In this document: piece after piece, positions 1,942-44,108 of the stretch
Position numbering within the stretch: position 1 is the first letter of the stretch
How the letters are laid out: every line of letters starts with the position of its first letter
Notes under the pieces: model-generated
Seen by the model: the letters and a program-made list of their open reading frames with translations, nothing else
Database searches by the model: none
What the model was told of the DNA's origin: nothing
Position numbers and translations under genes: made by a program
Virus record (IMG/VR): IMGVR_UViG_3300044641_006875
Span: 1-45,854 of that record
Length of the DNA stretch: 45,854 nucleotides
DNA from: a virus
Reading direction: 5' to 3' (one strand)

Positions 1942-3195
1942 TTAATAATTTTTTTTATTTTCCATGTAAAAATCATATAATGGCTTGTTAATCATTAAAA
2001 TAGATTCAAAATTTATTTTTTGATGTGGTCTATTTTTTTCTAAATATGTGATGTGATCCGTAGCATTTTTAAATTTATCAAAATATTCTGGATCATTATC
2101 TAAATACTCTCTTTCAATTAGAAATGAAAGATAATATCTAAAAGAATTTATTGTTTCATTATGTTCATTTTCAAATTTAACCAAGAAGTCGTCTATTAAT
2201 GATTTAATTAAATGTTTGGGAAATGCTAGTGGTGTTAATAGACTAAAAGAATCACCAACATAACATGTTTGAAAACCAGGTAAAACATTAAACTCTATGC
2301 AAAGGCGATATAGGTTTTCTAAGTCGAATAATGTTGGTGTAGTAATAGTAATTGCTAGGTACACCTTAATATTGTTAAATTCATTCCTTGCTTTAATAAT
2401 TTGAGAAAAATTTTCCCTCCAGGATATGTAATCTAAATTAGTTCTTATCCATTCACCAACATCACCAGTACCATCTAAACTACATGAAAAATCTACTCTT
2501 TTAAAATGTTTAAAATAATCAACAATTGAAACACCTTTATAATGAATGATCGATAGATTTGTGTTATATCTTAATACAACATTTTTAGCTTTATCATTTT
2601 TAATTAATTTGTCAAGGGTCTCCCAATGTGTTTTCCAGTAAAGGGGCTCACCACCAGCCCAGTACATATCAATAATATTTTCAAAAATATCTTCTTTATT
2701 AATCTCACTTTTAATGATATTTTCACTAACCACTCTTTGATCATGATTTAAAATGTTTAGTTCAATACCATTTTTAACTTTTTCTGCTTGTATTTGTGTT
2801 GAACACCCTTCCCAACACATTTTACACTTAAAATTACATACGTTTGTTCTATAATCAATCGATATAGGATATTTTACATAGCTACCGTCATCTTCGGTAT
2901 CACTAATAACTGAATCTATTAAGTCTCTAAATTTATCATTAAAGAAATTTTGATAAGTATGTGGGCTTGATGTGTTTTCATTACATCTGTTACAGATACT
3001 TAACTTCTCACCATTTAACATCTTTTTACGTATTTCTTTCATTTCTGTGCTATTCCACATTTCATCTAATGAAACATTAACACCAAAATTATGATCAGAA
3101 ATACAACATAGTTGACGCTCCCCTTGTGCTGATATGTGCGAATGAACCCAAGGAACAATACAAAAAGATTTATTATTTTCTAAATTTATACGCAT
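1942..3195 (-). CDS. Twitch-domain radical SAM protein
   Basis: A 417-residue protein. The N-terminus carries FCIVPWVH (11-18) followed by C30/C31 and a C-N-R-C pair (68-71), an arrangement seen in 'twitch'/SPASM-type auxiliary iron-sulphur modules placed before the core. The radical SAM cluster motif is C120-x3-C124-x2-C127, and the GGEP motif appears near 185. Radical SAM enzymes cleave S-adenosylmethionine to start radical chemistry; the substrate of the phage twitch group is not known to me. It stands between the large RNA candidate and the tRNA-Met gene, so modification of an RNA or a neighbouring product is possible but unproven. Length and motifs look intact. Confidence 0.82.
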   Translation of the reverse strand: MRINLENNKSFCIVPWVHSHISAQGERQLCCISDHNFGVNVSLDEMWNSTEMKEIRKKMLNGEKLSICNRCNENTSSPHTYQNFFNDKFRDLIDSVISDTEDDGSYVKYPISIDYRTNVCNFKCKMCWEGCSTQIQAEKVKNGIELNILNHDQRVVSENIIKSEINKEDIFENIIDMYWAGGEPLYWKTHWETLDKLIKNDKAKNVVLRYNTNLSIIHYKGVSIVDYFKHFKRVDFSCSLDGTGDVGEWIRTNLDYISWRENFSQIIKARNEFNNIKVYLAITITTPTLFDLENLYRLCIEFNVLPGFQTCYVGDSFSLLTPLAFPKHLIKSLIDDFLVKFENEHNETINSFRYYLSFLIEREYLDNDPEYFDKFKNATDHITYLEKNRPHQKINFESILMINKPLYDFYMENKKNY

Positions 3196-4664: not shown

Positions 4665-5078
4665 TTATTTTAATTTATATGATAACCCCAACCCTGGTGT
4701 AAAATTAGAACCAACAAGGTTTCCAATTAACCATAGTTTTAAATCTGTTGATTTTAATGCATTGTAACCAATGAAAGCATTTATTTTGTTTTCATGGTTA
4801 ACTGGTTGAACACCAAGACCAATTAAAATTTTATCTGGTTGAATCATCTTTAACACACCAAATTTCATCTGTGAAGAAAGTGATCCAGTTTTTTGATTAG
4901 CTAATTGCTGATCGTTATAGGGTGCACCAACGTATAACCCCCATGTGTTTTTTAATACGCCGGCCGTAATGTAACCATCTAATCCTTTATTTGTTCCTGA
5001 AACGAACACCTCTCGTTGTCCGTAGGTCACTGCCTTCACTCCCAATAGCATCATGACCAATATGATTTTTAGTTTCAT
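4665..5078 (-). CDS. Small exported beta-rich (outer-membrane-like) protein
   Basis: A 137-residue protein starting with a Sec signal peptide (MKLKIILVMMLLGVKAVTYGQ, cut probably after the GQ). The mature part alternates hydrophobic and polar residues and ends GLGLSYKLK, as in small Bacteroidota outer-membrane barrels. I do not recognise a family. It sits between tRNA-Glu and a terminator. An 11-bp inverted repeat overlaps the start codon (5077-5112), which suggests control of translation or RNA processing. Confidence 0.7.
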   Translation of the reverse strand: MKLKIILVMMLLGVKAVTYGQREVFVSGTNKGLDGYITAGVLKNTWGLYVGAPYNDQQLANQKTGSLSSQMKFGVLKMIQPDKILIGLGVQPVNHENKINAFIGYNALKSTDLKLWLIGNLVGSNFTPGLGLSYKLK

Positions 5079-6002: not shown

Positions 6003-6010
6003 TATTTATC
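6003..6010 (+). promoter_or_regulatory. Late-type box TATTTATC, 3 nt before ATG 6014
   Basis: TATTTATC-AGT-ATG. It opens the exported-protein cluster and decides the start of gene 6014. Confidence 0.55.
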
Positions 6011-6013
6011 AGT

Positions 6014-6556
6014 ATGGCAAAAAATAATAGACTAAACGTCTCTCTATTACCTTTATTGGTATTGTTTGGATTCTATGGTTTGTATTCTTATATCGTTGAA
6101 CCAGTTGAAGAAACTAAATCTGTTTACATCTCTGGGGTTGAGAATAAAATCAAGATCGGTAAATTGACAAGCAATAGGAATTTGGCTTTTGGTTGTAAGA
6201 ACATCTTTGAGGAGATTTTACAAGAAAAAGACTTCGTTATTGTTGGTGATCCAAGTTCAGCAGAACTTATATTCAGTGCTGAAATCCTTTATCTTGACGT
6301 TAATAGAACAAAAAGAAACATTTCGGTATTCCATTCTGATGTCGAGGAAACTCTAGTTGTAATTAAGGGGTCCTTAACAGATAAAAATGGTAAAAAAATA
6401 AAAGAAGCTGTTGCGGAAGAGTCTAGTTCAGAGATCTCAACCTCAACTTTCATAACTGATGAAGGAAGTGGTAAAATTAATCAACAAGCACTTTCTTCTG
6501 CATTAAAAAAGACTTGTGAGTCTTTGATCAATAAAACATTCTTTAATAAAAAATAA
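6014..6556 (+). CDS. Membrane-anchored protein, possibly CsgG/LptE-like lipoprotein-family fold
   Basis: A 180-residue protein with one N-terminal hydrophobic segment (LLPLLVLFGFYGLYSYIV), no lipobox Cys, and a periplasmic-type domain. The body (KIGKLTSNRNLAFGC, then AELIFSAEILYLD, then SLTDKNGKK) resembles envelope assembly proteins in which strands alternate with helices and end in a C-terminal helix; a weak resemblance to the CsgG-like protein at 14385 is visible. I chose ATG 6014 because TATTTATC lies 3 nt upstream; the ATG at 5981 would read through that box. First gene of the exported cluster. Confidence 0.6.
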   Translation: MAKNNRLNVSLLPLLVLFGFYGLYSYIVEPVEETKSVYISGVENKIKIGKLTSNRNLAFGCKNIFEEILQEKDFVIVGDPSSAELIFSAEILYLDVNRTKRNISVFHSDVEETLVVIKGSLTDKNGKKIKEAVAEESSSEISTSTFITDEGSGKINQQALSSALKKTCESLINKTFFNKK

Positions 6557-6562
6557 CATAAA

Positions 6563-8206
6563 ATGAAGAGATTACTAATTACCGGCATTTTTTTACTAGT
6601 CGCCAATTTAACTTTTGCACAATTAACAGTTAACCAAACAATAACTCCAACAACCGGATTAAAGGTTGGTGATACATTAACGGTTAAATACACCGTAGCC
6701 AGAGGAACTACAACACCTCGTTATTTTTGGTTAAGATATTCTTTTAATAATAAAGCGTTAGCTATGGTACCTAATAGTACCGTTTTCTCTCAAGGTAGTT
6801 CAACACAGACGTTTTTTACTGGTTGGAATAACTTTAGATTTACACCAGCAGCAAATATTGCAGATACTCAATTATCGGCTCAATATGCCGCAACTCCGTG
6901 GGGTTACGCAGCAAATAACGATTGGAATGTTGGTCAATTAACAGTTCAAAGAACCGACGCATCAATTAATGGTGATATTGCTACTCAAAAATATGTATTA
7001 AAAGATCAAAATAGTTACAATGATATACATAAATTAGATTTATCATATGCTATAAATGATGCGTCTGCAAATATATCACCAATCACCAGAAGTTCTACAA
7101 ACATATCATTAACAAACGTGGTTGGTAATACCTCACAATTTAAAGTTAAAGTATTATTCCCACAGGGATATACAATTACCGATCATAGAGTGCAATTAAT
7201 GAAATTAAAGACAGATGGTACAATTGATTGGTCACAACAACCTATTGCACAGTTACCATTAGATGCAACCGGTGAAGCATTATTTACAACACAAGTTAAA
7301 GTTGGTGATTCTGTTGGTGTTTTTGTAAGCCCAGCATCACAAAAAGCTTGGATGAATAATGTTATAACCGTTTCGGATGCTTATAAAGCATTTTTAGGTC
7401 ATTCACAAACCGATATTGCTGGAGCACCTAACTTTTTTACATATCCTGTTTTAGAAAGAACTATTGGTAACATAACAAGAAATGATAACACATTTAATGA
7501 ATCGGATTCATATTACTCATTCGCATATGTTATGGGGCAGGATGTATCAACAAACGCATTTATCCCAACACAAACAGCAACTTCTTGGAGATGGCATAGT
7601 GGATTATTAAATCAAAGTTGGTTAGATGGGGTAATTAAAAACAAAGTAACTATTGATACCCCAATAAAAGAGGTTTATGCTGTGTTTGCTTGGGGTGGTG
7701 ATTTAGATTGGTCACATTCTTCTTCACCGGCAGAGATTGCAAGTAGAATTACTGCTGGACAATTTACCAATTCAGTAAATTCACTTAATACTAAAACATC
7801 GATGTCAACACAATCGATGTCATATAAAACACAATCATTAGAGACCGCTAGATTAAGTGTAACATCTACATTAGAAGGTGGTAAGGTGGTATTAACTACA
7901 AACTTAACAAAAGAAGGTTTAGCTGGATTAGAAGTTATCATGAACTATGATGAATCTAAATTAACATTAGATAATATAATTTTTGATTCCGGATCAACAA
8001 TGACAAATTTTTCAACACGTAAGGACGGTAGATTAACTTTTGGTTCAATTGATCAAACAAAAACAGCAAGAATTAAAACAGGCACACCATATAAATTAAT
8101 ATTCACACCTAAGGTTCAATTAACAAATACCGCAGGTTTATTCTATTTTGTTTTATCTGATGCTGTTGATGGAAACGGTAACAAAATAAACTTAATAGTA
8201 GAATAA
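6563..8206 (+). CDS. Secreted modular protein with dockerin-like and cohesin-like regions
   Basis: A 547-residue protein with a Sec signal peptide (MKRLLITGIFLLVANLTFAQ). The N-terminal third looks like an Ig/beta-sandwich domain. A calcium-loop-like segment NDNTFNESDSYYSF (about 308-322) aligns with the dockerin-like part of the next protein. The C-terminal roughly 115 residues (GLEVIMNYDESKLTL and onward) read like a cohesin-type beta sandwich. The two neighbours share this order and the phrase VITVSDAYKAF/IVTVSDVFIAF, so they are paralogues. No T9SS sorting tail is seen. Role inferred: surface or virion-associated adhesion. It follows gene 6014 by 6 nt. Confidence 0.7.
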   Translation: MKRLLITGIFLLVANLTFAQLTVNQTITPTTGLKVGDTLTVKYTVARGTTTPRYFWLRYSFNNKALAMVPNSTVFSQGSSTQTFFTGWNNFRFTPAANIADTQLSAQYAATPWGYAANNDWNVGQLTVQRTDASINGDIATQKYVLKDQNSYNDIHKLDLSYAINDASANISPITRSSTNISLTNVVGNTSQFKVKVLFPQGYTITDHRVQLMKLKTDGTIDWSQQPIAQLPLDATGEALFTTQVKVGDSVGVFVSPASQKAWMNNVITVSDAYKAFLGHSQTDIAGAPNFFTYPVLERTIGNITRNDNTFNESDSYYSFAYVMGQDVSTNAFIPTQTATSWRWHSGLLNQSWLDGVIKNKVTIDTPIKEVYAVFAWGGDLDWSHSSSPAEIASRITAGQFTNSVNSLNTKTSMSTQSMSYKTQSLETARLSVTSTLEGGKVVLTTNLTKEGLAGLEVIMNYDESKLTLDNIIFDSGSTMTNFSTRKDGRLTFGSIDQTKTARIKTGTPYKLIFTPKVQLTNTAGLFYFVLSDAVDGNGNKINLIVE

Positions 8207-8207
8207 T

Positions 8208-10499
8208 ATGAAGAAATTATTAGTAATATGTTTTTTACTAATTTCATTTTTAGGGTTCGGACAGAGTGTATCTGCTCCGGACTCTAAATCGTTTTTACCA
8301 TCTACATCGGGACAGGATGCTAGTGGATTTAGTTTGAGTGGTTTTAGTTCAACAGCAACACTATTAGCATCAATCAGTTTAGTTAATCCACCATCAGGCA
8401 CAACATTCGTATTAAATACAACAACAGGTTTAACCGCAGCAAGTGGATTTACTTTAAGTGGTAATAAAACTCGTTTGGTGGTAACAGGAACAATGGCTAG
8501 TATCAATACTGCATTAGCATCTCTAAGGGTAAACACAGGTTCAGTAAGAGGTAATGTTGTATTATCGGTGGCTGCAACTGTTAACCCAACGGGATATTTT
8601 TATAACGGAACAAATGGACACTTTTATAGACCAATATCAACCGGAGCGACTTATACAAATGCTAGAACACTATCATCACAACAAACATTCAAAGGACAAC
8701 AAGGATACTTAGTAACAATTACTTCAGCAGATGAAGATGCATTTATTTTTAATAATGTGCCTCAATCAAATATATGGTTTGCATTAACCGATGAAGCAAG
8801 TGAAGCAAGATGGACAATTGATGCGGGGCCTGAAGCGGGAACTTTAATTAAAATCAATAATGGTCAATTAAATGGAAACATTCCAGGACAATATAATAAC
8901 TGGGCACCCGGTGAACCAAACAATAGTGGTAACGAAGATTATGCAGTAACTAAATGGAACGGTTCTCAATGGAATGATTTACCAAACCATTTTGTAAATC
9001 CATATGTAATTGAATTTGGAACTTGGACTAATCCTGATGATGCAACATTTACGGAGTTCTATACCAATTCAGTAACACATTCAAACGGAGATGTATTAAC
9101 TGCAAGATTTAATTTTGATTTTGGTGGTAATGTAGATGAAACTAAATTCACCGCCAAAGCAAATATTTTTGTAAATAATGTTTGGGGAACAACAACTAAC
9201 ACATCAAGAGCGATAAGTGGATTGGGTAAAGTTGATATTACAAATGATTTAGATACCGCAAAATTAACTGATGGAATTAGAGCAACTATAACACCCGGTC
9301 AAGTAGAATGGTCACTTATAAATCCATATGAAGCTTCACGAAATGGTCATAGATTACAAATTGATGAAAGAGAATTTTTTGGTACTGGTATAAACTTAAA
9401 TCAAATAAAATCAATACAATTATTTGACATATATGATGGCCCTATCCAACCTTTAGATTTTAATGGGTGGTGGAAACAATGGTTGGTTCCTGGAAATATC
9501 AATCTTGCTAGTAAAGTTGCTGCAAGTTCATTTCAAAGTAACATAAGATTACAAGATGGTTGGTATGCATTTAGAGCCGAATACACATTCACACCAAACA
9601 CAATGTTTAAACAACACGGGATTGATTTATCATATACCAATCAAACGGAATTAAATTCATTATATAATAGTATTGTAACTGTATCAGATGTGTTTATTGC
9701 ATTTAAAGAATTATCAATGGGTGGTATATTTGGAAACGAGAGTGGGAATGAATTTACTTCAGGTGTACAATTTATGAATGCGGATGTTGACGGTAATGGT
9801 ATATTCAATGAATCGGACACATATAAGTTATTACAACATTTAACAGGAACACAATCTCTTACTCAATCTACAACGTTAACTCATTTAATGAAGTTATATA
9901 GTAAATCGGATTATGATGCAATCACCAAGTCAAATTGGAATACACAAATTAATTCAACTAGAAGTTTATTCCCTTTTAATTTAAACTCAGGAACACTTAA
10001 TAACACATATAATGTGAATGTAACTTGGGTGGGTGATGTTAATATGTCTCACTCAGCACAACAATCTGTAAGTGGTGTAAGCACTAATAGCGTTAGGTCT
10101 ATGAGTTTGTCAACGAATTCGGTCTCAACTGAGATTAACGCATCTATCATGGGTGAGATTACTAATAATAAAGTTATAATAACCATATCATTAGATCCAT
10201 TACAACAAGAAGTAGTAGGAACTCAATTTCAATTAAATTATGATAACTCTAAATTAAAATTTGAAAAGGTTGATTTTATAACAAAAGGTAACCCCATGAA
10301 TTATGGGACAAATAAAGGGACTTTTATAAATGTTGGATCATTAATTACTGGTGGCACCGGTGTATTGGATAAAACCACTGAATATCGAGCAGTATTTACA
10401 CCAATAGGAGATATAACAGATATATTGGGGTTAACATCAATATCAACAACAGATGCAGTTAATAAAGACGGAAAACAATTAAAAATAAAATTAAATTAA
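8208..10499 (+). CDS. Secreted C-type lectin protein with dockerin-like and cohesin-like modules
   Basis: A 763-residue protein with signal peptide MKKLLVICFLLISFLGFGQ. A C-type lectin domain occupies about residues 125-265: it has EPN at 236-238 and WND at 255-257, the calcium and sugar-contact motifs that in animal lectins go with mannose-type binding. A dockerin-like loop DVDGNGIFNESD lies near 526, and the last roughly 115 residues are cohesin-like (TQFQLNYDNSKLKFE). It is a longer paralogue of the preceding protein and starts 1 nt after its stop. It probably binds glycans on the cell surface. Presence of a signal peptide argues for export through the host envelope, although a virion role is not excluded. 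Confidence 0.78.
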   Translation: MKKLLVICFLLISFLGFGQSVSAPDSKSFLPSTSGQDASGFSLSGFSSTATLLASISLVNPPSGTTFVLNTTTGLTAASGFTLSGNKTRLVVTGTMASINTALASLRVNTGSVRGNVVLSVAATVNPTGYFYNGTNGHFYRPISTGATYTNARTLSSQQTFKGQQGYLVTITSADEDAFIFNNVPQSNIWFALTDEASEARWTIDAGPEAGTLIKINNGQLNGNIPGQYNNWAPGEPNNSGNEDYAVTKWNGSQWNDLPNHFVNPYVIEFGTWTNPDDATFTEFYTNSVTHSNGDVLTARFNFDFGGNVDETKFTAKANIFVNNVWGTTTNTSRAISGLGKVDITNDLDTAKLTDGIRATITPGQVEWSLINPYEASRNGHRLQIDEREFFGTGINLNQIKSIQLFDIYDGPIQPLDFNGWWKQWLVPGNINLASKVAASSFQSNIRLQDGWYAFRAEYTFTPNTMFKQHGIDLSYTNQTELNSLYNSIVTVSDVFIAFKELSMGGIFGNESGNEFTSGVQFMNADVDGNGIFNESDTYKLLQHLTGTQSLTQSTTLTHLMKLYSKSDYDAITKSNWNTQINSTRSLFPFNLNSGTLNNTYNVNVTWVGDVNMSHSAQQSVSGVSTNSVRSMSLSTNSVSTEINASIMGEITNNKVIITISLDPLQQEVVGTQFQLNYDNSKLKFEKVDFITKGNPMNYGTNKGTFINVGSLITGGTGVLDKTTEYRAVFTPIGDITDILGLTSISTTDAVNKDGKQLKIKLN

Positions 10500-10509
10500 A
10501 ACAAAAATT

Positions 10510-11262
10510 ATGGCAGACAGAAACGGAGACGGAATAGTATATCATCGCTCAGATTGTGGTGACAATTATGTAAGATGGTATTCGAGTGGTGGAGATAGCC
10601 CTTGTTCAGCGTGTGATACGTGGGGACTTACCGATAAGGCAATCAGATACATCCACGATCATCCTGAAATAAATCACAGATTTGAAGATGTGGTGGGTAG
10701 AGAGTGGGAGGAAGAAGTTATGCCGGTACTTATTAATATCGGAAACCAAATAGAGTCTGGTGTTAAAGAAGGATATGAAGTAGTAAAAGATGGTGTTAAA
10801 GAGGGCTATGAAGTAGTAAAAGATGGTGCAGTGATAGCATATAATTGGGCGGATGAAAACGCATGTAATATAGCAATAACTGCCGCAATCTCTGCAGGTG
10901 TTGTTGCGGCATTTTCACCGGCACAACCTGCTGGAGCAGCAACTTCAACTACATTATCATTTATGGCTACACCTGTTCTTTACGTTGCAGATATGACAGC
11001 TAAAATGGCGGTATCAACGGCAATGGGTGTAATTGTGACAGAGGCATTTTTACAAATACCAGGTGTTAGTGATAGTATTGACCACGAAATATTAAAGAAT
11101 GTAATTTCAAATTGTATCTATCATAGTTTAGAGTCGGCACACTTATGGGCAACACCAGCTGGTGTTGGTATTGCAATCGGAGCTGCAGTAGCACCAATTG
11201 TTGCAGATTTGATATGTAAAAGAACTTGTCCTAATGGATTCAGTAAAGCATTGGGGGCATAA
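10510..11262 (+). CDS. Hypothetical protein with tandem 11-residue repeat and hydrophobic C-terminal half
   Basis: A 250-residue protein lacking a signal peptide. The N-terminus has DRNGDG and several Cys/His (C17, C32, C35). Residues 85-106 are two copies of VKEGYEVVKDG, encoded by a 33-bp direct repeat at 10762-10827. The rest is Ala/Val/Ile-rich with two or three hydrophobic segments, suggesting membrane insertion or a glycine-zipper-like region. I do not recognise it. It overlaps the next gene by 1 nt (TAATG), so the two are translationally coupled. Confidence 0.65.
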   Translation: MADRNGDGIVYHRSDCGDNYVRWYSSGGDSPCSACDTWGLTDKAIRYIHDHPEINHRFEDVVGREWEEEVMPVLINIGNQIESGVKEGYEVVKDGVKEGYEVVKDGAVIAYNWADENACNIAITAAISAGVVAAFSPAQPAGAATSTTLSFMATPVLYVADMTAKMAVSTAMGVIVTEAFLQIPGVSDSIDHEILKNVISNCIYHSLESAHLWATPAGVGIAIGAAVAPIVADLICKRTCPNGFSKALGA

Positions 11263-12155
11263 TGAAAAAACTAATAATCATATTATCATTACTTTGTATT
11301 GGATTTGTTTCGAAAGCACAAATACAAAAACCCGATACGTTACAACTATCACCAAAAGAGTTATTTGGAGAAAGTGATGATTGGAATGATGTAGGTATAT
11401 TACAATCCTATGTTAATTTCTCAAAAGACGTTCTCTCATCATCAAATCTTTCGATAGGTGTAATTGGAAGACAAGTATCTACCACACTCAATTTAGGATA
11501 CCACAAATCGTCTTTAAACGGTCAATGGGGGCATTCATTTGCCGCATCGATAAATCCTATATGGAACTATTATGGTGTGGGGTATGGTCTCAGTAGAAAC
11601 ACAGAAAAAAGAACAACAACAATACAAACATTTTATTCCACGGACTTTGACTTTCAAAAAGACATTAATCTATCTTTTATAGATGTGTTTAGAACAAAAA
11701 AGTATGGAACATTTGGTTATAGTTTAACAGCATCAAAATCATTTTGGGGGACTTATCAAGGTGAATGGGAAGGAAAATATACGGTGGATGAAAATGGTGA
11801 TTTTAAAGATTTAATTTATCCACAAATGCCAGCATCATCAGAACTTACTTATAGAGGTATGGTGATGTATACGTATACATTAAAAACAAAAAGAGTGGAT
11901 ATTTCACCACAAGTATTTGCTATGAGTGACATATACAAAGTATTCAAAGATGGTACTGAATCAGATTTGGCATATGTAGATGACTTCAATTTGGACTTGT
12001 ATTATGGGGTTTCCATGGATTGGAAAATAACCAGAAGATTTGTGTTAAACACCAATATCAGATACAATACAACTTGGGATAAGTTAAGTGAATCTGTGGG
12101 GTATAAAAAGAGTAATCCGATCCTATTTATGATAGGAACAAACTTTAAATTTTAA
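11262..12155 (+). CDS. Outer-membrane beta-barrel-like protein
   Basis: A 297-residue protein with signal peptide ending SKAQ. The mature part is rich in alternating strands with Tyr/Trp/Phe girdle residues and ends in Phe (GTNFKF), the usual outer-membrane barrel terminus. It shares ISPQVFAM (near residue 217) with the C-terminal barrel of the protein at 15992. This suggests a barrel that may act in secretion or anchoring of the secreted proteins encoded upstream; that role is inference. Confidence 0.7.
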   Translation: MKKLIIILSLLCIGFVSKAQIQKPDTLQLSPKELFGESDDWNDVGILQSYVNFSKDVLSSSNLSIGVIGRQVSTTLNLGYHKSSLNGQWGHSFAASINPIWNYYGVGYGLSRNTEKRTTTIQTFYSTDFDFQKDINLSFIDVFRTKKYGTFGYSLTASKSFWGTYQGEWEGKYTVDENGDFKDLIYPQMPASSELTYRGMVMYTYTLKTKRVDISPQVFAMSDIYKVFKDGTESDLAYVDDFNLDLYYGVSMDWKITRRFVLNTNIRYNTTWDKLSESVGYKKSNPILFMIGTNFKF

Positions 12156-12499
12156 TGAAAAATTTATTATTAATATTATTATTTTTATTAGTTGGGTGTA
12201 CGAAAATGGAAATAGAACCGTTACCTCAACCAACAACACAAAATATATTTAGTGTTGCTGAAAGTGCCGTGACAGACGGCCAAACCATACAATTTGACTT
12301 ACCTTCAGACGGCATATATATACTAACATATACAGATGTGGCAACAGGTCAGGTTATAAGTAGGGAAAAATTTAATGGGAAGGCAGGCAAAAATTTAAAG
12401 AAAATATATACCAAAACCATAATGCCGAAGTATTTATATTTGATACTTGCTTCGGAGAATAAAACTCAAATAAGTAAAACAAAAATAACAATAAACTAA
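12155..12499 (+). CDS. Lipoprotein with a sorting-domain-like beta sandwich
   Basis: A 114-residue protein with lipobox LVGC (C15). The body (DGIYILTYTDVATGQVI, then a glycine-led strand, then KYLYLILASENK) has the rhythm of the C-terminal domains used by Bacteroidota type IX secretion, but here it is a lipoprotein of its own. It starts at the last base of the previous stop codon and is paralogous in layout to the next gene. Confidence 0.65.
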   Translation: MKNLLLILLFLLVGCTKMEIEPLPQPTTQNIFSVAESAVTDGQTIQFDLPSDGIYILTYTDVATGQVISREKFNGKAGKNLKKIYTKTIMPKYLYLILASENKTQISKTKITIN

Positions 12500-12500
12500 A

Positions 12501-12872
12501 ATGAAGAAAACACCAATTTTATTATTACTTGCCGCCATTTTGGTTGGATGCAATAAAGATGACTTTTATCAACCACCAATGAACGAAGTAAAGCCTGAGT
12601 TACAGATAAAAAACAATGTAGGTATCAAACTAGAGACAGCATTTGTAACAAGTGAAGTTTCTATGAATGTAAAAATTGATGTTGCTCAAGCAGTAACAAT
12701 AAAGATATTTGATATTTCTAATAGAGTGGTTTCTAAGGAGACTATGTCGGTTAAATCCGGTGATAATCTTTTAAAGGTATACACAACGGCATTACCGTCA
12801 TCTGCTTACAGAATTGGACTATTTGATTCTAAAGGTAATGAATTAGGAATAACAGATTTTAATAAATTATAA
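12501..12872 (+). CDS. Lipoprotein with a sorting-domain-like beta sandwich (paralogue)
   Basis: A 123-residue protein with lipobox LVGC (C17). The second half (VTIKIFDISNRVVSKE, then SSAYRIGLFDSKGNE) resembles type IX secretion type-A sorting domains more clearly than its neighbour does. No catalytic residues are seen. It probably sits at the inner face of the outer membrane or on the surface. Whether it competes with, mimics or docks to host type IX secretion is a guess. Confidence 0.68.
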   Translation: MKKTPILLLLAAILVGCNKDDFYQPPMNEVKPELQIKNNVGIKLETAFVTSEVSMNVKIDVAQAVTIKIFDISNRVVSKETMSVKSGDNLLKVYTTALPSSAYRIGLFDSKGNELGITDFNKL

Positions 12873-12888
12873 ACAAAAAAATAAAACA

Positions 12889-13206
12889 ATGTCAGAAGAA
12901 TTAGAACAAAATAATGATGGTACTTGGTCTGGTCTAAAAAAGACCATTATCGGTGTTGCAACAACAGCAGTTATGGGTTTAGGAACTTGGGGTGTTACCC
13001 AAATCACTGGTGGTGATGAACCTGCTCCGGCTCCTGCAGCAGCGCCAGTAATTAACATTACAAACTCAAACCAACAAGCTCAACAAGCTTCTGGTGGTGG
13101 GGGTAAAACCGTAGTCATTAAAGAAAAAGAAACAGTTAAGGAACCAGCTAAACCTGTTAAAAAGAAAGATGGTGATGAATTTAAAGAAGAAGCTCCTAAA
13201 TGGTAA
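12889..13206 (+). CDS. Small single-pass membrane protein with Pro/Ala and Lys-rich tail
   Basis: A 105-residue protein: short polar N-terminus, one hydrophobic segment (TIIGVATTAVMGLGTWGV, about 19-36), then a low-complexity region with EPAPAPAAAP, NQQAQQA, GGGG and a KE-rich end. Position just before three holin-like genes hints at a lysis or envelope role, but nothing identifies it. Confidence 0.65.
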   Translation: MSEELEQNNDGTWSGLKKTIIGVATTAVMGLGTWGVTQITGGDEPAPAPAAAPVINITNSNQQAQQASGGGGKTVVIKEKETVKEPAKPVKKKDGDEFKEEAPKW

Positions 13207-13212
13207 TATAAT

Positions 13213-13836
13213 ATGAAAGAAGAACAATCAGGTGGATTTAAAGAGTTATTAGGTAACATGATGAAGCGCAGGTGGTTTATTACCGCTATCGTTTTAGGTG
13301 GATTTATGATTATTATAATGGGAATATTTGGGGCAATCCTAAATAAATCAGCAATTGAGGGTGAGTGGAAAGAACTACTCTTATTATTGTTAGGTGCTTT
13401 CATTGGTTCTTATGGTAAAATCATTGACTATTGGTTCAGTGATACCGATAAGGATAAGATGTTAGTACAAAAGATGGATGAGGAAGATGGTACATCATTA
13501 AGCAATACTGCGGATATGCCAAATAACCCAATTGTACCAATGTCAACAGCACCATTAGTATTACCAACAAAAGAAGAAACGTTGAACGATACTTTTGAAA
13601 GAGTCCCTGTTACAGCACAAGTAGAATCTAAAGAAGAGAAAAAAGGTGTTGAGATTGACGAAGATGGTGATGGTGTTATGGATGGTTTAGATTTTGACGG
13701 TGATGGTAAAATCGATGAATACTTTGCACATAGACAATGTGAGCACGTTTGGGGAGACTCAGATGGTGACGGAGATTTAGAGTGTTTAGTATGTGGTAAA
13801 ATAAAAGATCCTGAACTTGGCGAAGAAGAGGGATAA
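13213..13836 (+). CDS. Two-helix membrane protein with DxDGDG loops and a C-terminal Cys knuckle (holin-like)
   Basis: A 207-residue protein. Two hydrophobic helices (about 21-43 and 54-68, LLLLLLGAFIGSYGK) are followed by a long acidic tail. The tail contains DEDGDGVMDGLDFDGDGKID, calcium-type loops like those of dockerins and thrombospondin type 3 repeats, and then C-E-H, DGDGDLEC and C-L-V-C-G, which could form a zinc ribbon. The membrane part resembles phage holins; the tail is not normal for holins. It may link the inner membrane to the secreted dockerin/cohesin-like proteins. Confidence 0.62.
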   Translation: MKEEQSGGFKELLGNMMKRRWFITAIVLGGFMIIIMGIFGAILNKSAIEGEWKELLLLLLGAFIGSYGKIIDYWFSDTDKDKMLVQKMDEEDGTSLSNTADMPNNPIVPMSTAPLVLPTKEETLNDTFERVPVTAQVESKEEKKGVEIDEDGDGVMDGLDFDGDGKIDEYFAHRQCEHVWGDSDGDGDLECLVCGKIKDPELGEEEG

Positions 13837-13865
13837 TAAAAATAAAACGCATAAAATTTTAAAAT

Positions 13866-14132
13866 ATGGCAAGTTTTTTGAAAGAATTATTTAATGACAA
13901 CAACACAATCAACGAAAAATCAGTAGTTGGTTTCTCATCATTTATTTGTATGGTAATAGCATTGGTTGTTGATCTTGTGACTGGTTACATGGGTAAACCT
14001 TTGGTTATAAATGAATTTATCTTTGATGGGTTTTTAGTTATAACATTAGGTGCATTTGGCATTGCATCGGTAGATAAGTGGATTAATAATAAGAATCTTA
14101 AAAAAGACGAACCAGAGGTTTTAGAAGGATAA
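13866..14132 (+). CDS. Holin-like two-helix membrane protein
   Basis: An 88-residue protein with two hydrophobic segments (about 20-41 and 52-70) and a charged C-terminus (NNKNLKKDEPEVLEG), the usual layout and size of class II holins. No family signature is recognised. Neighbouring membrane genes support a lysis or envelope function, but no endolysin is present in the window. Confidence 0.58.
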   Translation: MASFLKELFNDNNTINEKSVVGFSSFICMVIALVVDLVTGYMGKPLVINEFIFDGFLVITLGAFGIASVDKWINNKNLKKDEPEVLEG

Positions 14133-14148
14133 AATTAAAAACAAAGAA

Positions 14149-14379
14149 ATGACTAACATCTTAAATAAAGCTAAAGCAACCCTTTTTAATGTGACTGTGG
14201 TTTTCACTTGTGCTTGGCTAGCATTTGCATTATCTTTTCAGATGTATGCTATATACTTAACAGTAAGCGGACAAGAGCAAGAAATGACAAGAATTTCTAA
14301 TGAAATTTCTTGGAAAATTGACGGTACATTTAAAAACAATCCAGAAAATATCTGGTATGAAGGTGATCAAAAACAATAA
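14149..14379 (+). CDS. Small single-pass membrane protein
   Basis: A 76-residue protein with one hydrophobic helix (FNVTVVFTCAWLAFALSFQM, about 13-32) and a polar C-terminal tail, consistent with a spanin-like or holin-partner protein but with no diagnostic residue. It is 5 nt from the CsgG-like gene. Confidence 0.6.
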   Translation: MTNILNKAKATLFNVTVVFTCAWLAFALSFQMYAIYLTVSGQEQEMTRISNEISWKIDGTFKNNPENIWYEGDQKQ

Positions 14380-14384
14380 GGTAT

Positions 14385-15107
14385 ATGAAAAAATTATTAG
14401 TTACATTAAGCGTTTTTTTACTAAGCGTTGTTGTTCTTAATGCACAAACAATAGGTAAAACAAAAACAGAAGACTATAAAGCCGATTTTGAAAAGAAAAA
14501 GGATATAAGCGCTTACTTGGATTATGATGGTCCTCAAATACCTATTCAAATTCTTAAATGTGGTATATCTGATGAGGTATATGAAATGTATCCAGAACTA
14601 AAAGAAAAACGTGTTGGTTTAGGGGTTGCAAACATATCAATGGAATATCTTGAAAATCTTAATAGATTTAAGTTTACTGAAGATAAAACAGAAATTAAAA
14701 ACAGAATGGTTAAGCAGTTTCAGGCTTCTCAGGCTGGCATTTCAGAAAACAAATTAGATGGTAGAGGTAAAATTAATTTAGCAAAGTATTTTGTAACAAT
14801 TGAATGTTATGATTATTCCGTATCTGAAGATGAAACAATTAATTTAAAGGATGGTATAAAAGATAATATGGTGACTAGAATTGGTTTACAGGTAAGATTT
14901 ACCGATGCCGAGACTGGTCTAGTTTTTGCTGGTTCCGGTTTAGGTGAAGCTAAAACAACCAGAGAATTAACATTATTATCCGATGCAACTATAGATCCAA
15001 TAAAATTTAATCAATCAACCATTAGTATATCAACTAAAAAGGCATTAGACATCGCGGTTGCAAACATTCTTGATAGAATGATTAAGAAGCAAATATTCAC
15101 AAAATAA
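14385..15107 (+). CDS. CsgG-like exported protein
   Basis: A 240-residue protein with signal peptide MKKLLVTLSVFLLSVVVLNAQ. The mature protein follows the order of the CsgG family: GLGVANIS strand, a helix, then NLAKYFVTIECYDYS, a long strand pair VTRIGLQVRFTDAETGLVFAG, and a final helix with ALDIAVANILDRM. CsgG forms the outer-membrane channel for curli; the family includes shorter relatives of unknown function. The lipobox Cys of true CsgG is missing. CsgG-like genes occur in other T4-like phages, as far as I recall. It is the last gene before the terminator at 15131. Confidence 0.65.
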   Translation: MKKLLVTLSVFLLSVVVLNAQTIGKTKTEDYKADFEKKKDISAYLDYDGPQIPIQILKCGISDEVYEMYPELKEKRVGLGVANISMEYLENLNRFKFTEDKTEIKNRMVKQFQASQAGISENKLDGRGKINLAKYFVTIECYDYSVSEDETINLKDGIKDNMVTRIGLQVRFTDAETGLVFAGSGLGEAKTTRELTLLSDATIDPIKFNQSTISISTKKALDIAVANILDRMIKKQIFTK

Positions 15108-15130
15108 TATAACAATAATAAGAATTATTT

Positions 15131-15158
15131 AAAAGGAGGTGTAATAACCTCCTTTTTT
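15131..15158 (+). terminator. Rho-independent terminator of the exported-protein operon
   Basis: AAAAGGAGGT / ACCTCCTTTT perfect 10-bp stem with loop GTAATA, followed by T residues. It ends the run that starts at 6014. Confidence 0.9.
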
Positions 15159-15160
15159 TA

Positions 15161-15168
15161 TATTTATA
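15161..15168 (+). promoter_or_regulatory. Late-type box TATTTATA before gene 15183
   Basis: Lies directly after the terminator, 14 nt before ATG 15183; a place where a new promoter is needed. Confidence 0.55.
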
Positions 15169-15182
15169 ATAAAAGAAAAGGT

Positions 15183-15992
15183 ATGAAACTAATACTATTA
15201 ACTTTATTACTTGTACCGTCATTTTTATTCGGTCAAGTGTCTTCTTGGAGAAATAATCCACCCAGACAATCTTTACCACAACAAAGGGTAGAATCATCAA
15301 GAACAATACCATCAACACCACAACGAAATGATGTCAGCAGATGGAGAAGTAATCCACCTCAACCAGATCCGCGAGGTAGAGTTAGAATTCAAAACTGGGG
15401 TAGACCGAATCAGTTTGGTTACTACTGGGGAGAATGGGGATGGTATCAGCCATTTCCTTTCATTTGGTATGATGATTTTGGATGGAGACAAAGAAGTGTA
15501 ATTCACGTATACGAAAATGGTAAAAGAGATACTATTAGAAGAGAATCAATTTATACAACTTTTGGTGCTGGGTATACAAATAATAAACAAGTATCTTTTT
15601 GGGGTGCTGCTGGAAGAAAAAAAGGTTATTTTATTTTAGATTACACAATGTCATATGATATTGATCAAAATGAATATTACCCATATGGTAGAATAAGCGA
15701 TGTGGACTTTCCACTAAGTGATAATGATTTTATTAAACAAGGTGCATTATATCTTGGTGGAGGTAAAAGATTTGGAAAGTTAGGTGTTCATGGAATGATT
15801 GGGTTTGGTAGAGAGATTATTAGATATCAGGGTAGAGACGAACTAGGTGGTATTTCATTCCCTAAATCAAATTCAAATTTTACAACATTTAAATTTGGTA
15901 TTATAAGAGACTTTAAATTCTTCACATTAAAATTAGATAGAGATCCAATAAGAAATTACAACCAAATAAGTATTGGATTGCATAATAAGTAA
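15183..15992 (+). CDS. Exported protein with Pro/Arg-rich linker and barrel-like C-terminus
   Basis: A 269-residue protein. Signal peptide MKLILLTLLLVPSFLFGQ, then a low-complexity segment with repeated SSWRNNPP / SRWRSNPP units (about 20-65), a Trp/Tyr-rich stretch (GYYWGEWGWYQPF) and a strand-rich C-terminal part. Likely outer-membrane associated. It has its own TATTTATA box after a terminator and is coupled to the next gene by a shared TAATG. Confidence 0.65.
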   Translation: MKLILLTLLLVPSFLFGQVSSWRNNPPRQSLPQQRVESSRTIPSTPQRNDVSRWRSNPPQPDPRGRVRIQNWGRPNQFGYYWGEWGWYQPFPFIWYDDFGWRQRSVIHVYENGKRDTIRRESIYTTFGAGYTNNKQVSFWGAAGRKKGYFILDYTMSYDIDQNEYYPYGRISDVDFPLSDNDFIKQGALYLGGGKRFGKLGVHGMIGFGREIIRYQGRDELGGISFPKSNSNFTTFKFGIIRDFKFFTLKLDRDPIRNYNQISIGLHNK

Positions 15993-17425
15993 TGAAAAAA
16001 ATATTATTTTTTATTTTTATTTTTATTTCGATAAAATCGTTTGGTCAAACTTATACACAAACTTTTATAGACAAATGTAGTGGTGAAAGAAAAGTTGCAA
16101 CTACAACCATGATTAATGGTCAAGCAACTGTATCTTTTTATAATCAAATTAGAACATTTACATTATTGGAGGTACAAACAGGTGTTGTACAAACATGGTT
16201 AATGACAACAAAAGCAACGTATGAATCATTAACTTGTCCAGTTATTAATAATCCTGTTGTACAACAAGCTGTTGCTAATACTGCAGCTCAAACAGCTAGT
16301 AACGCAGCTGCAGCTGCTGCAAGTTCTGCTGCATCAAGTGCAGCGTCATCATCAGCATCGTCAGCGGCAAGTAGTAGTGCTAGTTCAGCGGCATCAAGTT
16401 CAGCGGCTGCATCAACACCACCACCAACAACCCCACCACCTGCACCAGCAAGTGGTTCATCTGGATCTACTGGTAGTAATAGTTCATCTGGTGGTGGATC
16501 ATCTTCAAGTGGGTCATCATCTTCAGGATCTAAAACCGAATCAAAAACTGAAACTAAAAGTGAAAGTAAGACCGAGTCTAAATCGGAATCTAAAACAGAA
16601 GAAAAGAAGACAGAATCTAAAACGGAAGAAAAGAAAGAAGAATCAAAATCTGAAAGTAAAGAAGAGAAAAAAGAAGAAAAGAAATCAGAAGAGAAAAAGG
16701 AAGAAAAGAAAGAGGAGGAGAAAAAAGAAGAAAAGAAAAAAGAAGAAAAGAAAAAAGAAAAAGCGGTTGTATCGAACCCAATGTTATTATCATCTGATCT
16801 ATCAACAATAGAATCACCCGATGGTAGATGGTTACAATCCGCAACTATTGGTGTCTCTAAATCATCATTAATGGGCGATGAAAGTTATTCAGCAAATGCT
16901 GTCATAATGAGTGATTTAAAAACTTTTATTGTTAGTGGTGGTTATACTAAAATGGATTTCTCTGGTGGTAAGTTAAAAGCTATACATTCATACTCATCCG
17001 CGTTTGCATATTTGAATGGAAACTATATGAACTTGTTGGGTTATACACATATTAAACCAACACTAAAACATGGTGTTTTTGGTTACAATCTTGGTATAAT
17101 TAATTTATTTTTAAAAAATGGAGATAACAAATATGATTTTAATATGTCATCATCAGTTGTAACATTTTGGACAAAACCATATCAGTATAATAAAAAGTTA
17201 ACGATATCACCACAAGTGTTCGCAATGGCTGCCCCAATATCATGGAATAGTGTAACTGGAGGGTCAACAGTAAATAGACAATTAGGTTTTCTTTTAGGTT
17301 CTTCCTTTGATTATAAATTAAGTAAAAGATTTGGACTAAGTGTTAATTACAAATTAAGTGGTAACACTGCACCGGGTTCACCTTTCTTGAGTAATATTTT
17401 GATTGGATCAAGAATGATTCTTTAA
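15992..17425 (+). CDS. Exported protein with Ser/Ala and Lys/Glu repeats and a C-terminal barrel
   Basis: A 477-residue protein with signal peptide ending KSFGQ. After a roughly 80-residue domain comes an Ala/Ser tract built of SSAASSSA-like units (about 92-145), a Pro/Gly/Ser linker, and a charged tract of TESK and EEKK repeats up to about residue 255. The last 215 residues are a strand-rich barrel-like domain that shares ISPQVFAM with the protein at 11262. The repeats look like a flexible periplasmic spacer. This may anchor the outer membrane to something in the periplasm. The purine-rich repeat DNA may be length-variable. Confidence 0.68.
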   Translation: MKKILFFIFIFISIKSFGQTYTQTFIDKCSGERKVATTTMINGQATVSFYNQIRTFTLLEVQTGVVQTWLMTTKATYESLTCPVINNPVVQQAVANTAAQTASNAAAAAASSAASSAASSSASSAASSSASSAASSSAAASTPPPTTPPPAPASGSSGSTGSNSSSGGGSSSSGSSSSGSKTESKTETKSESKTESKSESKTEEKKTESKTEEKKEESKSESKEEKKEEKKSEEKKEEKKEEEKKEEKKKEEKKKEKAVVSNPMLLSSDLSTIESPDGRWLQSATIGVSKSSLMGDESYSANAVIMSDLKTFIVSGGYTKMDFSGGKLKAIHSYSSAFAYLNGNYMNLLGYTHIKPTLKHGVFGYNLGIINLFLKNGDNKYDFNMSSSVVTFWTKPYQYNKKLTISPQVFAMAAPISWNSVTGGSTVNRQLGFLLGSSFDYKLSKRFGLSVNYKLSGNTAPGSPFLSNILIGSRMIL

Positions 17426-31767: not shown

Positions 31768-32523
31768 ATGAGCAAGATTGGGGTTATAAAAACTAAACTT
31801 TTAAAGAAGTTAACAGAATCATATGGTTCTAACAATAAATCTGAAATGAAAAACATTTTAAAGACTATTGTTGAAAATAAAGAATTTAAAGAAATGTATC
31901 TTTTCTACGAAGAGATTGAGAACAAATATTTTGAAGATAAGGAAACAGCAAAATTATATGTTGAAGGTATTGATACTATGTTAAACCATACTATGGGGAA
32001 ACAACAGGTTAAAAGTTTAAACACGTTTTGTGAATCATTGGACAAAAAGTTAGGTGATATCGAAGTTAACTCTAATGAATTATATGAAGCATTAGATCAA
32101 CTTAGTACAGAAGATTCTTTATTAACACTAGAAAAGAAAATAGTAGCTAAAAAGAAATTAGTTGAGCATTTAACAAAGAAAAAATCAGTAGAAAATATCG
32201 TTGAGAATAACACTTACACCGCAAATGAAAATTTGTTACACGCGGTTCTAGTAAATAACTTTAATAGTTTATATGAAAATACTTTAACTAAAGAAGATAA
32301 AGAACAACTTAAAAGTATTTTAGAGTTAAACGGTGAGGATTTAGTATCAAAAACTAAAGAATTAAAAGAATCTATTTTAAATAAAGTAGACAATATTTTA
32401 TCAGAATCAAAAGATGGTGATTTGGGTAGTAAGCTTCAATCAGTTAAGAATGAGGTTAATACCATGGAGCTATCAAAATACAATTATTACAGATTAACAC
32501 AATTGAAAAATGGTCTTGATTAG
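31768..32523 (+). CDS. Helical protein between portal and protease (possible head-core component)
   Basis: A 251-residue, Lys/Glu/Leu-rich, mainly helical protein. It starts 2 nt after the portal gene. In T4 this interval holds small prohead core proteins (gp67, gp68), so a core role is possible by position only; no sequence match can be shown. Its stop codon lies within the terminator stem-loop at 32509. Confidence 0.6.
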   Translation: MSKIGVIKTKLLKKLTESYGSNNKSEMKNILKTIVENKEFKEMYLFYEEIENKYFEDKETAKLYVEGIDTMLNHTMGKQQVKSLNTFCESLDKKLGDIEVNSNELYEALDQLSTEDSLLTLEKKIVAKKKLVEHLTKKKSVENIVENNTYTANENLLHAVLVNNFNSLYENTLTKEDKEQLKSILELNGEDLVSKTKELKESILNKVDNILSESKDGDLGSKLQSVKNEVNTMELSKYNYYRLTQLKNGLD

Positions 32524-32538
32524 TTAAGACCATTTTTT
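32509..32538. terminator. Bidirectional terminator between head gene and bS21 gene
   Basis: AATGGTCTT / AAGACCATT perfect stem with 8-nt loop and T-runs in both directions. The ends of both convergent reading frames lie inside it. Confidence 0.88.
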
Positions 32539-32711
32539 AATTTCTCCACATAAACAGCTTTTAATACTTCAGCTCTTCTTTTAACTGAAGGTTTAACAAA
32601 CTCTTGTCTTTCCCTTAGTTGTTGTATCTGTTTAGTTCTTTGAACTTTACCTTTGTAGGTCTTTAGAGCACTCTCGATGCTCTTTTCTTTTTTCATGTCA
32701 ATTATTATCAT
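32520..32711 (-). CDS. rpsU: Ribosomal protein bS21 homologue
   Basis: A 63-residue full-length bS21: MIIIDMKKEKSIESALKTYK, then QLRERQEFVKPSVKRRAE and LKAVYVEKL. The R-x-R-Q-x-F/Y-x-KPS-x-x-R core and start match bS21 of Bacteroidota. bS21 joins the 30S subunit late, near the 3' end of 16S rRNA. In Flavobacterium johnsoniae, bS21 with bS18 and bS6 hides the anti-Shine-Dalgarno; as I recall a C-terminal Tyr (Tyr54) does this, and this protein has Tyr at 54. bS21 has been reported in other large phages. No Shine-Dalgarno is seen; a TATTTATA box lies 4 nt upstream of the ATG. Confidence 0.88.
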   Translation of the reverse strand: MIIIDMKKEKSIESALKTYKGKVQRTKQIQQLRERQEFVKPSVKRRAEVLKAVYVEKLKNGLN

Positions 32712-42224: not shown

Positions 42225-44108
42225 TTATGTTAGTTTACCGTGAGCTTTTAATATACCTGGTGGTATTATAGCGGCACCACCTAATGGTGCAACGGGTATT
42301 TGTGCATAATCTAAACTAACCTGCACAAATGAATTTTGATCCATTTCTTTTTGGTGTCCTTTGATTATTGAAGAGAAAAACGCAACAACATTATTGTCTT
42401 GACCATATAGATCACCAGTTGGTATACCATTTGCTTCTAATAGTTCACCAATATTCATAATTGCTCTATCTTCACTATATCCTGGAAGTCTTTTTGATAA
42501 TTGTAATAGTAATCCAGGTATTTTTTGGGACACACCAACTTTTAATTGATTTAATAATGCTAAAATAGCATTGTAAAAATCATCACATGACGCAATACCA
42601 ATAAATGGAATTAACGCCGCTAAAATATCAATCAATGCTGTTAATATTACTAGATATCTCTTTTTAGAATTCTTTAAAATTCTTCTTGCTAAATCTTTCA
42701 ATATTAATGCTAACTGTGGTTTAACTTTTGTCCAAAAAACAGTTAAAAACTTATTAAAGATATCTTTAATAATGTTATACACCATTTTGGTTAAATTCTT
42801 AATAATTGTTTGAATTGTTGTTACTGCATTTATAACAGCAGATTTTAATATTTTCCAAAGTACAACAACCGGAAAAAACATCTTTGCTGAAAACACTGAA
42901 GATATTAACGCTTTAGGTAAATTTTTTAAAGAATTAAAATCAAGATTAGCAGCAAATTGTGGGTATGGTATTGATAAATTTTGATTTGCGGCGTCTTTTG
43001 CAACTTTCGATAAAGCGCTATTATATAAATCTGTGATATCATTTTTAGTTGTAGAAAAAAATGCAAATTCTTCAACAATACCTTGATTAACCGGAATAGT
43101 AAAATTATTACAATCTGTAAATTTTAATACTTTTTGATATCTTAAATTCTCATCATCAATATCAATACCTTCAACATCATCAAAATTAAAAAACGCACCT
43201 AGATCTACATCACCCTCATTAAACTGATCAACTGGGTTTTGTTTTAATTCATTGTTCTGTGGTTTAGCACAAACTGCACAAATTTTATCAATGACTCTAG
43301 TTAATTTATTTACATTAACATCATAGCTTGCGTTTGTTACATTAATACCACCAGCCGGGATTAACATGGAAAAACTATTCTTTAATACATCAGATATTTT
43401 TGGAAACTCAATAGTTTCATAATACTTTGTAATAAATTGGTCAACTGTTGTTCCACCAGCTTGAAGCCCCTCTATTTTATATTTTTGAATAGCACTGTCC
43501 CATTCCATTGAAAATAGCTGAGTTTCATCTATTGATTGAAAGATATATGAACCACCACTAAATTTCTCATAAAATATTTTATTCATTTTTATTTTATCAC
43601 CATTAGCTTGTGGCCCCTCATATATTATTTTACCCAAACCCGTTTGAGGGTCTGTTTGTAACATATCTAAAAGATCAAATTCTTTTGGGGAAATCGTTAA
43701 TCCACTAACAGGCATTGGTGTGGTTGTACCGCAATTCATATCACTGTCACTAGCAAAAAACAACTTTCTAACGTTATCTAAAAAAATCGGCTTAACTGAT
43801 TCGGTTGTTTCTTTAACAGATTCTCTGGTGATTCTTCTTAACATACTTTCACCGTTTTTTTGTTTTACGGGAAGTATTTTTTGTAAATCTGTGGTTATTT
43901 TTTCAAATATATTTTCTACGTTTGGTAGTTTCTGTTTTGCTTTGTCAGCATAACTTTCTAATGTACCACCAATCTGTCCTTGTAAATTTTCTAATGTATC
44001 GTCATATGTTTTCAATAGATCTTCAACGCCTTTTTTTGTGTCATTGGCTTGTTGAATAATTTTAAACTTGGATTTAATTTCCCTTTGTTTATTTTTAAGA
44101 TCTACCAT
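42225..44108 (-). CDS. Large tail/baseplate protein with hydrophobic helical region
   Basis: A 627-residue protein. N-terminal about 115 residues are charged helices. The central part is mixed, with C-A-V-C and C-G near 130-285. A long hydrophobic helical stretch follows (about 400-520; FFPVVVLWKILKSAVINAV, YLVILTALIDILAALIPFIG), as in tape-measure or hub proteins that meet the membrane. The C-terminus is globular. No T4 homologue can be named; gp29-type hub function is only a guess from position. Confidence 0.55.
   Translation of the reverse strand: MVDLKNKQREIKSKFKIIQQANDTKKGVEDLLKTYDDTLENLQGQIGGTLESYADKAKQKLPNVENIFEKITTDLQKILPVKQKNGESMLRRITRESVKETTESVKPIFLDNVRKLFFASDSDMNCGTTTPMPVSGLTISPKEFDLLDMLQTDPQTGLGKIIYEGPQANGDKIKMNKIFYEKFSGGSYIFQSIDETQLFSMEWDSAIQKYKIEGLQAGGTTVDQFITKYYETIEFPKISDVLKNSFSMLIPAGGINVTNASYDVNVNKLTRVIDKICAVCAKPQNNELKQNPVDQFNEGDVDLGAFFNFDDVEGIDIDDENLRYQKVLKFTDCNNFTIPVNQGIVEEFAFFSTTKNDITDLYNSALSKVAKDAANQNLSIPYPQFAANLDFNSLKNLPKALISSVFSAKMFFPVVVLWKILKSAVINAVTTIQTIIKNLTKMVYNIIKDIFNKFLTVFWTKVKPQLALILKDLARRILKNSKKRYLVILTALIDILAALIPFIGIASCDDFYNAILALLNQLKVGVSQKIPGLLLQLSKRLPGYSEDRAIMNIGELLEANGIPTGDLYGQDNNVVAFFSSIIKGHQKEMDQNSFVQVSLDYAQIPVAPLGGAAIIPPGILKAHGKLT

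Follow-up and report, generated by a model that had tools for sequence, protein, structure and literature searches.

The stretch of DNA analyzed here (hereafter the window) is a 45.9-kb virus record in which positions 6014-17425 are occupied by 14 genes, A to N, all on the forward strand; a sequence-only reading that preceded this analysis had counted thirteen in the same interval. Neighboring genes are separated by -1 to 29 nt, with the sole exception of the 75 nt between L and M, where a terminator-like hairpin (15131-15156, +) forms the single break in the block. A late-promoter-like motif precedes each of the resulting halves, namely TATTTAT at 6003-6009 (+), 11 nt before A and of a motif class shared with the virion genes, and TATTTATA at 15161-15168 (+), 22 nt before M. 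The tight operon spacing and the two transcription units with a terminator at 15131 that the earlier reading had described are thus both recovered, as is its count of at least eight signal peptides or lipoboxes: we find signal peptides in B, C, E, L, M and N and lipoboxes in F and G. Its description of the remaining genes as membrane proteins applies to A, which has an N-terminal signal anchor, and to H, I, J and K, which have transmembrane (TM) segments, and fails for D, which has no signal peptide and just two hydrophobic stretches. By a crude rule-based scan, export signals occur in only 2 of the 34 window proteins of 80 aa or more that lie outside the block, as against 8 of 14 within it, and based on the hypergeometric probability of this distribution (P ~3e-4) the clustering is not attributable to chance. 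These signals are also retained in relatives, both as signal peptides (B, 93/95; C, 100/102; E, 106/109) and as lipoprotein signals (G, 103/105; F, 107/124). Outside the block, a further exported, small barrel-like protein is encoded at 4665-5078 (-) with TATTTAT 39 nt upstream; its homologue sits within the module in the relative L243.

Judged by its gene content, the window comes from one of the T4-like phages of freshwater Bacteroidota that encode bS21. Its Gp23 capsid protein is T4-like (7e-74), as is its terminase, and a 63-aa bS21 gene (32520-32711, -) is located among the terminase, portal and capsid genes, its best match among PDB sequences being 7jil (3.7e-13). As a bS21 gene on the reverse strand among structural genes has been reported for the huge phages of freshwater Bacteroidetes (PMC9723584), we place the window in that group. 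The window bS21 is closest in sequence to the protein of a solved Flavobacterium-type ribosome (7jil). Among public phage records, the top-listed relative by terminase is Flavobacterium phage immuto (29% identity). The tRNA region of the window additionally codes for a 417-aa Cys-rich protein (1942-3195, -) that resembles a radical SAM enzyme.

The module is conserved and phage-owned. Relatives of L were found in 520 IMG/VR stretches and those of E in 90, and conservation was read from the best 80 of each. The order A-B-C-E-F-G-H-I-L is kept in 27 of the 29 sequence clusters reaching from A to L, with all of B, C, H and I present in just 18 of them; D, K and some inserts vary. The same genes thus recur in the same order in dozens of independent viral contigs, and since the flanks differ between contig groups the block behaves as a portable unit. 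Gp23 is present in 24 of 34 module-bearing records, the rest of which may be fragments, and all 34 hold one full-length L. Bacterial and archaeal genomes yielded L on three contigs only, one of which, from a MAG, carries Gp23 as well. The phage collection gave no match to the 11-kb region by megablast and none to E by tblastn. In immuto, the block runs gp13 (lectin), gp14, gp15 (cohesin), gp16 (H), gp17 (L), gp18 (N) and gp19 (A-like), and in a third arrangement seen among relatives gp14 and gp15 are fused. A misassembled host segment, which the earlier reading had raised as a possible undoing of its own proposal, is excluded by the synteny across dozens of contigs and by the cultured phage immuto.

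We then consider the motif at the start of both units. On the sense strand of the window TATTTATA occurs 15 times, and 11 of these sites fall within the 5-70 nt that precede a gene start, zones that amount to 3.5% of strand positions (P ~1e-13); the result is unchanged if the one site among these that is located within gene F (12431) is omitted. The genes so preceded include those for the terminase, portal and bS21, those at 33283 and 34065, and M. In relatives, the motif is found in 19 of 48 unique sequences upstream of M, against a background of 3%. In immuto, 24 of 30 TATTTATA sites are upstream of annotated genes, including those for the terminase, portal, tail sheath and tape measure, and one is positioned 12 nt before gp13. 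The first module gene is preceded by TATTTATA or ATATTTAT in 48 of 68 window-type and 29 of 40 immuto-type unique upstream sequences, compared with 4% for random windows and 17% for other ORFs. The T4 late motif TATAAATA, of which TATTTATA is the reverse complement, is not enriched upstream of window genes (1/15), and a scan for sigma-70-like promoters gave no more than shuffled sequences did. Transcription units reported from lake metatranscriptomes, namely bS21, the capsid gene with its upstream gene and the protease gene with its downstream gene (PMC9723584), agree with the TATTTATA sites. We therefore see in TATTTATA a strong and well-supported candidate for the late promoter of T4-like Bacteroidota phages; both units of the module start at a TATTTATA-type motif shared with the virion genes, for which reason we consider a late operon probable.

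The two largest exported products of the first unit are modular adhesins, as had been proposed from the sequence alone. B (6563-8206, +) combines a C-terminal cohesin domain, detected in 9 of 28 family members (best 3.7e-6), with a degenerate dockerin-like segment that gives no Pfam dockerin match above threshold. C (8208-10499, +) unites a C-type lectin (Lectin_C, 2e-6, above the Pfam cut-off), a dockerin-type repeat and a C-terminal cohesin; across 30 members of its family Lectin_C is found in 27, Cohesin in 15, Dockerin_1 in 12 (a weak match, best 0.0013) and LCCL in 5. AlphaFold2 models C with moderate overall quality (pLDDT 66), but residues 638-763 are confident and superimpose on solved cohesins with Z 14.1 and 2.2 A over 125 residues, and cohesin entries fill the top 30 rows of the Foldseek output. 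Because the pLDDT of the lectin part is low (about 25-45), we base that assignment on Pfam and make no fold claim for it. In immuto, gp13 displays a lectin and a dockerin-type repeat, read from the sequence, whose motif columns are invariant in the alignment, while gp15 joins a cohesin (5.9e-9, above the PF00963 cut-off) to a type IX secretion system (T9SS) type A sorting domain (TIGR04183, 9.3e-12, above the cut-off) and, having a signal peptide as well, presents the combination by which we recognize T9SS cargo. The same sorting domain occurs in relatives with fused gp14-gp15, and a TIGR04183 search of B and C of the window found none. Across 34 immuto-type proteins we observed Lectin_C, Laminin_G_3, PA14, Cohesin (1.4e-12), Por_Secre_tail (1.7e-11) and, as a weak match in 15 of them, Dockerin_1 (best 2.3e-4); elsewhere in the immuto proteome none of the cohesin, dockerin and lectin domains was matched. 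A regular expression written strictly for dockerin loops proved too narrow and was discarded. The glycan-binding heads differ among relatives (Lectin_C, Laminin_G_3, PA14 or LCCL), and the domains are laid out as in a small, anchored scaffold whose binding heads are interchangeable and whose parts may bind one another. A search of the open-access literature for phage T9SS cargo or phage cohesin-dockerin pairs found nothing on point.

The last gene of the first unit, L (14385-15107, +), codes for an exported protein of a phage-specific family that shares 55% identity with immuto gp17. Its model (pLDDT 76) best matches CsgG (Z 11.9 over 162 residues, 3.5 A), a fold that covers the whole protein; the first eight entries of the fold search are CsgG, with the next groups at Z 7.0-10.7 and PelC, LptE, PqiC and TraT all ranking below CsgG. 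The CsgG-like protein of the sequence-only reading is accordingly upheld at the level of fold. CsgG was seen by the fold search alone, as the L profile finds no match among PDB sequences. The signal of L ends in LNAQ and lacks the cysteine of the CsgG lipobox, its long predicted hairpins carry conserved acidic residues and look unlike membrane strands, and hhalign returns no profile match with the CsgG of HTVC008M; for these three reasons we do not classify L as CsgG itself. The cluster contains no Pfam match to the partners CsgE, CsgF, CsgA and CsgB. L and A do not match in hhalign, yet the profiles of both reach immuto gp19. In an Ignavibacteriales MAG contig (L245:9992-17428), two L-like genes of the CsgG fold, of which one has a lipobox, are followed by genes for a large exported protein, a cyclase-like protein and an outer-membrane-like protein; in HTVC008M a cyclase gene likewise follows the csgG cluster.

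Among the other products, A (6014-6556, +) is a predicted periplasmic, YajG/TraT-like protein held by its signal anchor. In its family, Lipoprotein_16 is detected in 12 of 29 members (7e-6) and TraT (PF05818) in 9 of 29, the latter below the cut-off (best 4.5e-4), with A itself scoring 18.6 bits against the required 31. The A profile also reaches K (14149-14379, +; 5.7e-19), a TM anchor that is fused to A in other phages, which suggests that A and K work together. D (10510-11262, +) is a 250-aa accessory protein of variable presence and position. E (11262-12155, +), with 75-96% identity among the relatives found, is a probable outer-membrane barrel homologous to the C-terminal part of N (15992-17425, +), itself a homologue of immuto gp18 (3.2e-14) in which a small N-terminal domain and a long low-complexity linker, first Ala/Ser-rich and then Lys/Glu-rich, lead into the E-like probable barrel. 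M (15183-15992, +) has a Pro/Arg-rich start and a C-terminal part that is probably beta-strand-rich. The barrels of the earlier reading are hence likely for E, M and N from their sequences and remain predictions, as the three did not stand apart from controls in counts of amphipathic strands. F (12155-12499, +) and G (12501-12872, +) are homologous to each other and, by their conserved lipoboxes, are the lipoproteins that had been foreseen; F bears a small Ig/T9SS-tail-like domain and G a weakly matching DUF3244/Por_Secre_tail-like one, the joint set of 36 sequences giving DUF3244 in 19 (2.9e-5) and Por_Secre_tail in 17 (4.3e-4). H (12889-13206, +) is a short single-TM protein with a Gln/Pro/Lys-rich tail and a homologue of immuto gp16 (4.7e-19). 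I (13213-13836, +), an inner-membrane protein with an Asp/Gly-rich (DxDxDG) tail, is conserved in window-type relatives and has a short version in immuto-like ones. Of the holin-like proteins noted before, J (13866-14132, +) is a plausible example, being a two-TM protein whose immuto homologue (43386-43721) is immediately 5' of chitinase and holin genes.

In relatives, the genes inserted in or beside the module encode a PG_binding/GH19 endolysin, Lipase_3, a TonB-dependent receptor with a lipoprotein, and a metallophosphoesterase with a glycosyltransferase. The GH19 endolysin is near the module in many relatives and immediately 3' of it in L243. The TonB-dependent receptor (825 aa) is found beside a 398-aa lipoprotein (L054:5913-8387, L118:16444-17637). 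Immediately 5' of the module, immuto gp12 (L162:9935-10510) and its relatives are Endonuclease_NS proteins (1e-25) with a signal peptide, and such an exported nuclease might destroy incoming or released DNA. About 40 related ORFs beside the module (e.g. L223:7118-7570, -) code for an exported 151-aa protein with the HExxH-like motif HESKH and no Pfam match, and a 206-aa protein (L078:12024-12641) that has an N-terminal TM segment and may be rich in beta-strands in its C-terminal part might reach across the periplasm. As the products of these genes could all work on the envelope or beyond it, they support an envelope role for the module, and they also keep a role in lysis under consideration.

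In light of these observations, we propose that the module is a late operon whose products are exported to build a glycan-binding coat on the infected Bacteroidota cell, an explanation to which we give an even chance of being correct and which suggests that a lytic phage rebuilds the outside of its host before release. Late in infection, transcription would begin at the TATTTATA-type sites observed before both module and virion genes. B, C, E, L, M and N would then cross the inner membrane by means of their signal peptides, F and G would become lipoproteins, and A, H, I, J and K would likely remain in the inner membrane. E and N may insert into the outer membrane, where L, by virtue of its modelled fold, could form a ring, possibly with A, K and H as partners. 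The B/C-type adhesins of immuto-type relatives would leave through the T9SS of the host by their sorting domains, and those of the window type via L or another route. The observed cohesin and dockerin-type domains would finally link the adhesins into a lectin-displaying scaffold. The likely gain is a masking of host glycan receptors, which would keep progeny from being wasted on the dying cell and its debris and would block late superinfection; alternatively, the coat may hold new hosts nearby. Of the explanations considered, display of such a coat accounts for the most parts. A more specific version, namely a late cellulosome-like cohesin-dockerin scaffold with exchangeable lectin heads that is delivered via T9SS in one lineage and via a CsgG-fold exporter in the other, is put forward tentatively and is more probably wrong than right. 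The earlier proposal of a surface-display set in place of virion parts gains from the signal peptides, the lectin, cohesin and dockerin domains and the T9SS domains of relatives; it is qualified by the probable late expression of the set together with the virion genes and by the endolysin and holin genes that adjoin it in several relatives.

Those adjoining genes are the reason for which we retain a role in lysis or release. Under such an explanation the module would serve the outer-membrane stage of lysis, with J as the holin, L, E, N, H, F and G weakening or bridging the outer membrane in a spanin-like manner, and the adhesins as mere passengers. The late-type motif, the endolysin near the module in many relatives and right behind it in L243, and the place of the J homologue next to chitinase and holin in immuto would all fit, and a lysis role has been proposed for the phage CsgGF pore (PMC9004378). 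However, the lysis cassette of immuto (43-45 kb) lies 27 kb from its module (10.5-16.4 kb), and lysis has no need of lectins, cohesins, dockerins or T9SS tails, so that it would account for J and possibly for L, N and H, and would leave the adhesins aside; we regard it as unlikely, if the foremost of the alternatives. A dedicated superinfection exclusion, in which the exported proteins would close the cell to other phages from early on in the manner of TraT, Llp or Cor, is less probable again: A is weakly TraT-like and an exported nonspecific nuclease adjoins the immuto module, but exclusion genes are usually early whereas the module motif is of the late type, and the TraT match of A is below the Pfam cut-off. 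Surface remodelling against superinfection has been proposed for this phage group from its LPS genes (PMC9723584).

The late-type motif is common to the virion genes and lectin domains would suit host recognition, and one could accordingly envisage that the lectin and cohesin proteins, once freed by lysis, bind virions and aid their adsorption. We consider this very unlikely, as signal peptides would remove these proteins from the cytoplasm, where virions form, and no other immuto protein has a cohesin, dockerin or lectin match. Least probable, in our estimation, is a pore for nutrient uptake or secretion that serves host metabolism during infection; uptake has been proposed for the pelagimyophage CsgG pore (PMC7029224), and the modules of some relatives do hold the 825-aa TonB-dependent receptor and lipoprotein, but this receptor is missing from the window and most relatives, and the adhesins would be left unexplained.

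If the glycan-binding coat is real, the surface of many infected lake Bacteroidota cells would, ahead of lysis, be made by the virus and bind sugars, which would affect superinfection, aggregation and debris, and the more than 500 relatives of L in IMG/VR point to a phage group that is abundant in lakes. The phage-encoded T9SS sorting domains would amount to the direct use of a phylum-specific host secretion system, and the cultured phage immuto makes these proposals testable.

Most known cases in which a phage alters the envelope of its host involve single small proteins. TraT, Llp of T5 and Cor, which are encoded by mobile elements and exported to block entry or surface receptors, are likewise small and act singly, in contrast to the 14-gene operon with adhesins and a late-type motif seen here. 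The closest counterpart is gp13-gp19 of immuto (Flavobacterium phage vB_FspM_immuto, MW353175), where homologues of L, H, N and A form one block with lectin and cohesin proteins; it differs from the window in having no E, F, G or I and in the T9SS sorting domain added on gp15. GenBank labels these lectin and cohesin proteins gene by gene and does not describe the module as such, and our search found no paper discussing the immuto-type or window module. Pelagimyophages and the Methylophilales phage Melnitz carry a csgF/csgG cluster (PMC7029224, PMC9004378) that likewise places a CsgG-fold protein among exported proteins in a T4-like phage, but it has no annotated lectin, cohesin or dockerin and the hosts are Proteobacteria. 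The sequence-only reading had known of no described equivalent; this stands insofar as the module as a whole is concerned, and gives way in part to the pelagimyophage clusters and the GenBank labels of immuto. As in cellulosome scaffolds, a cohesin fold (Z 14.1) and, as weak matches, type I dockerins occur in exported modular proteins, but the present module is phage-encoded, has lectins and no annotated cellulases, and its cohesin-dockerin pairing is putative. To the sequence-only reading, which had the kind of system right, the present analysis adds the late-type motif, the cohesin and dockerin content, the CsgG fold of a protein that lacks the lipobox, the link to T9SS and the existence of a cultured relative.
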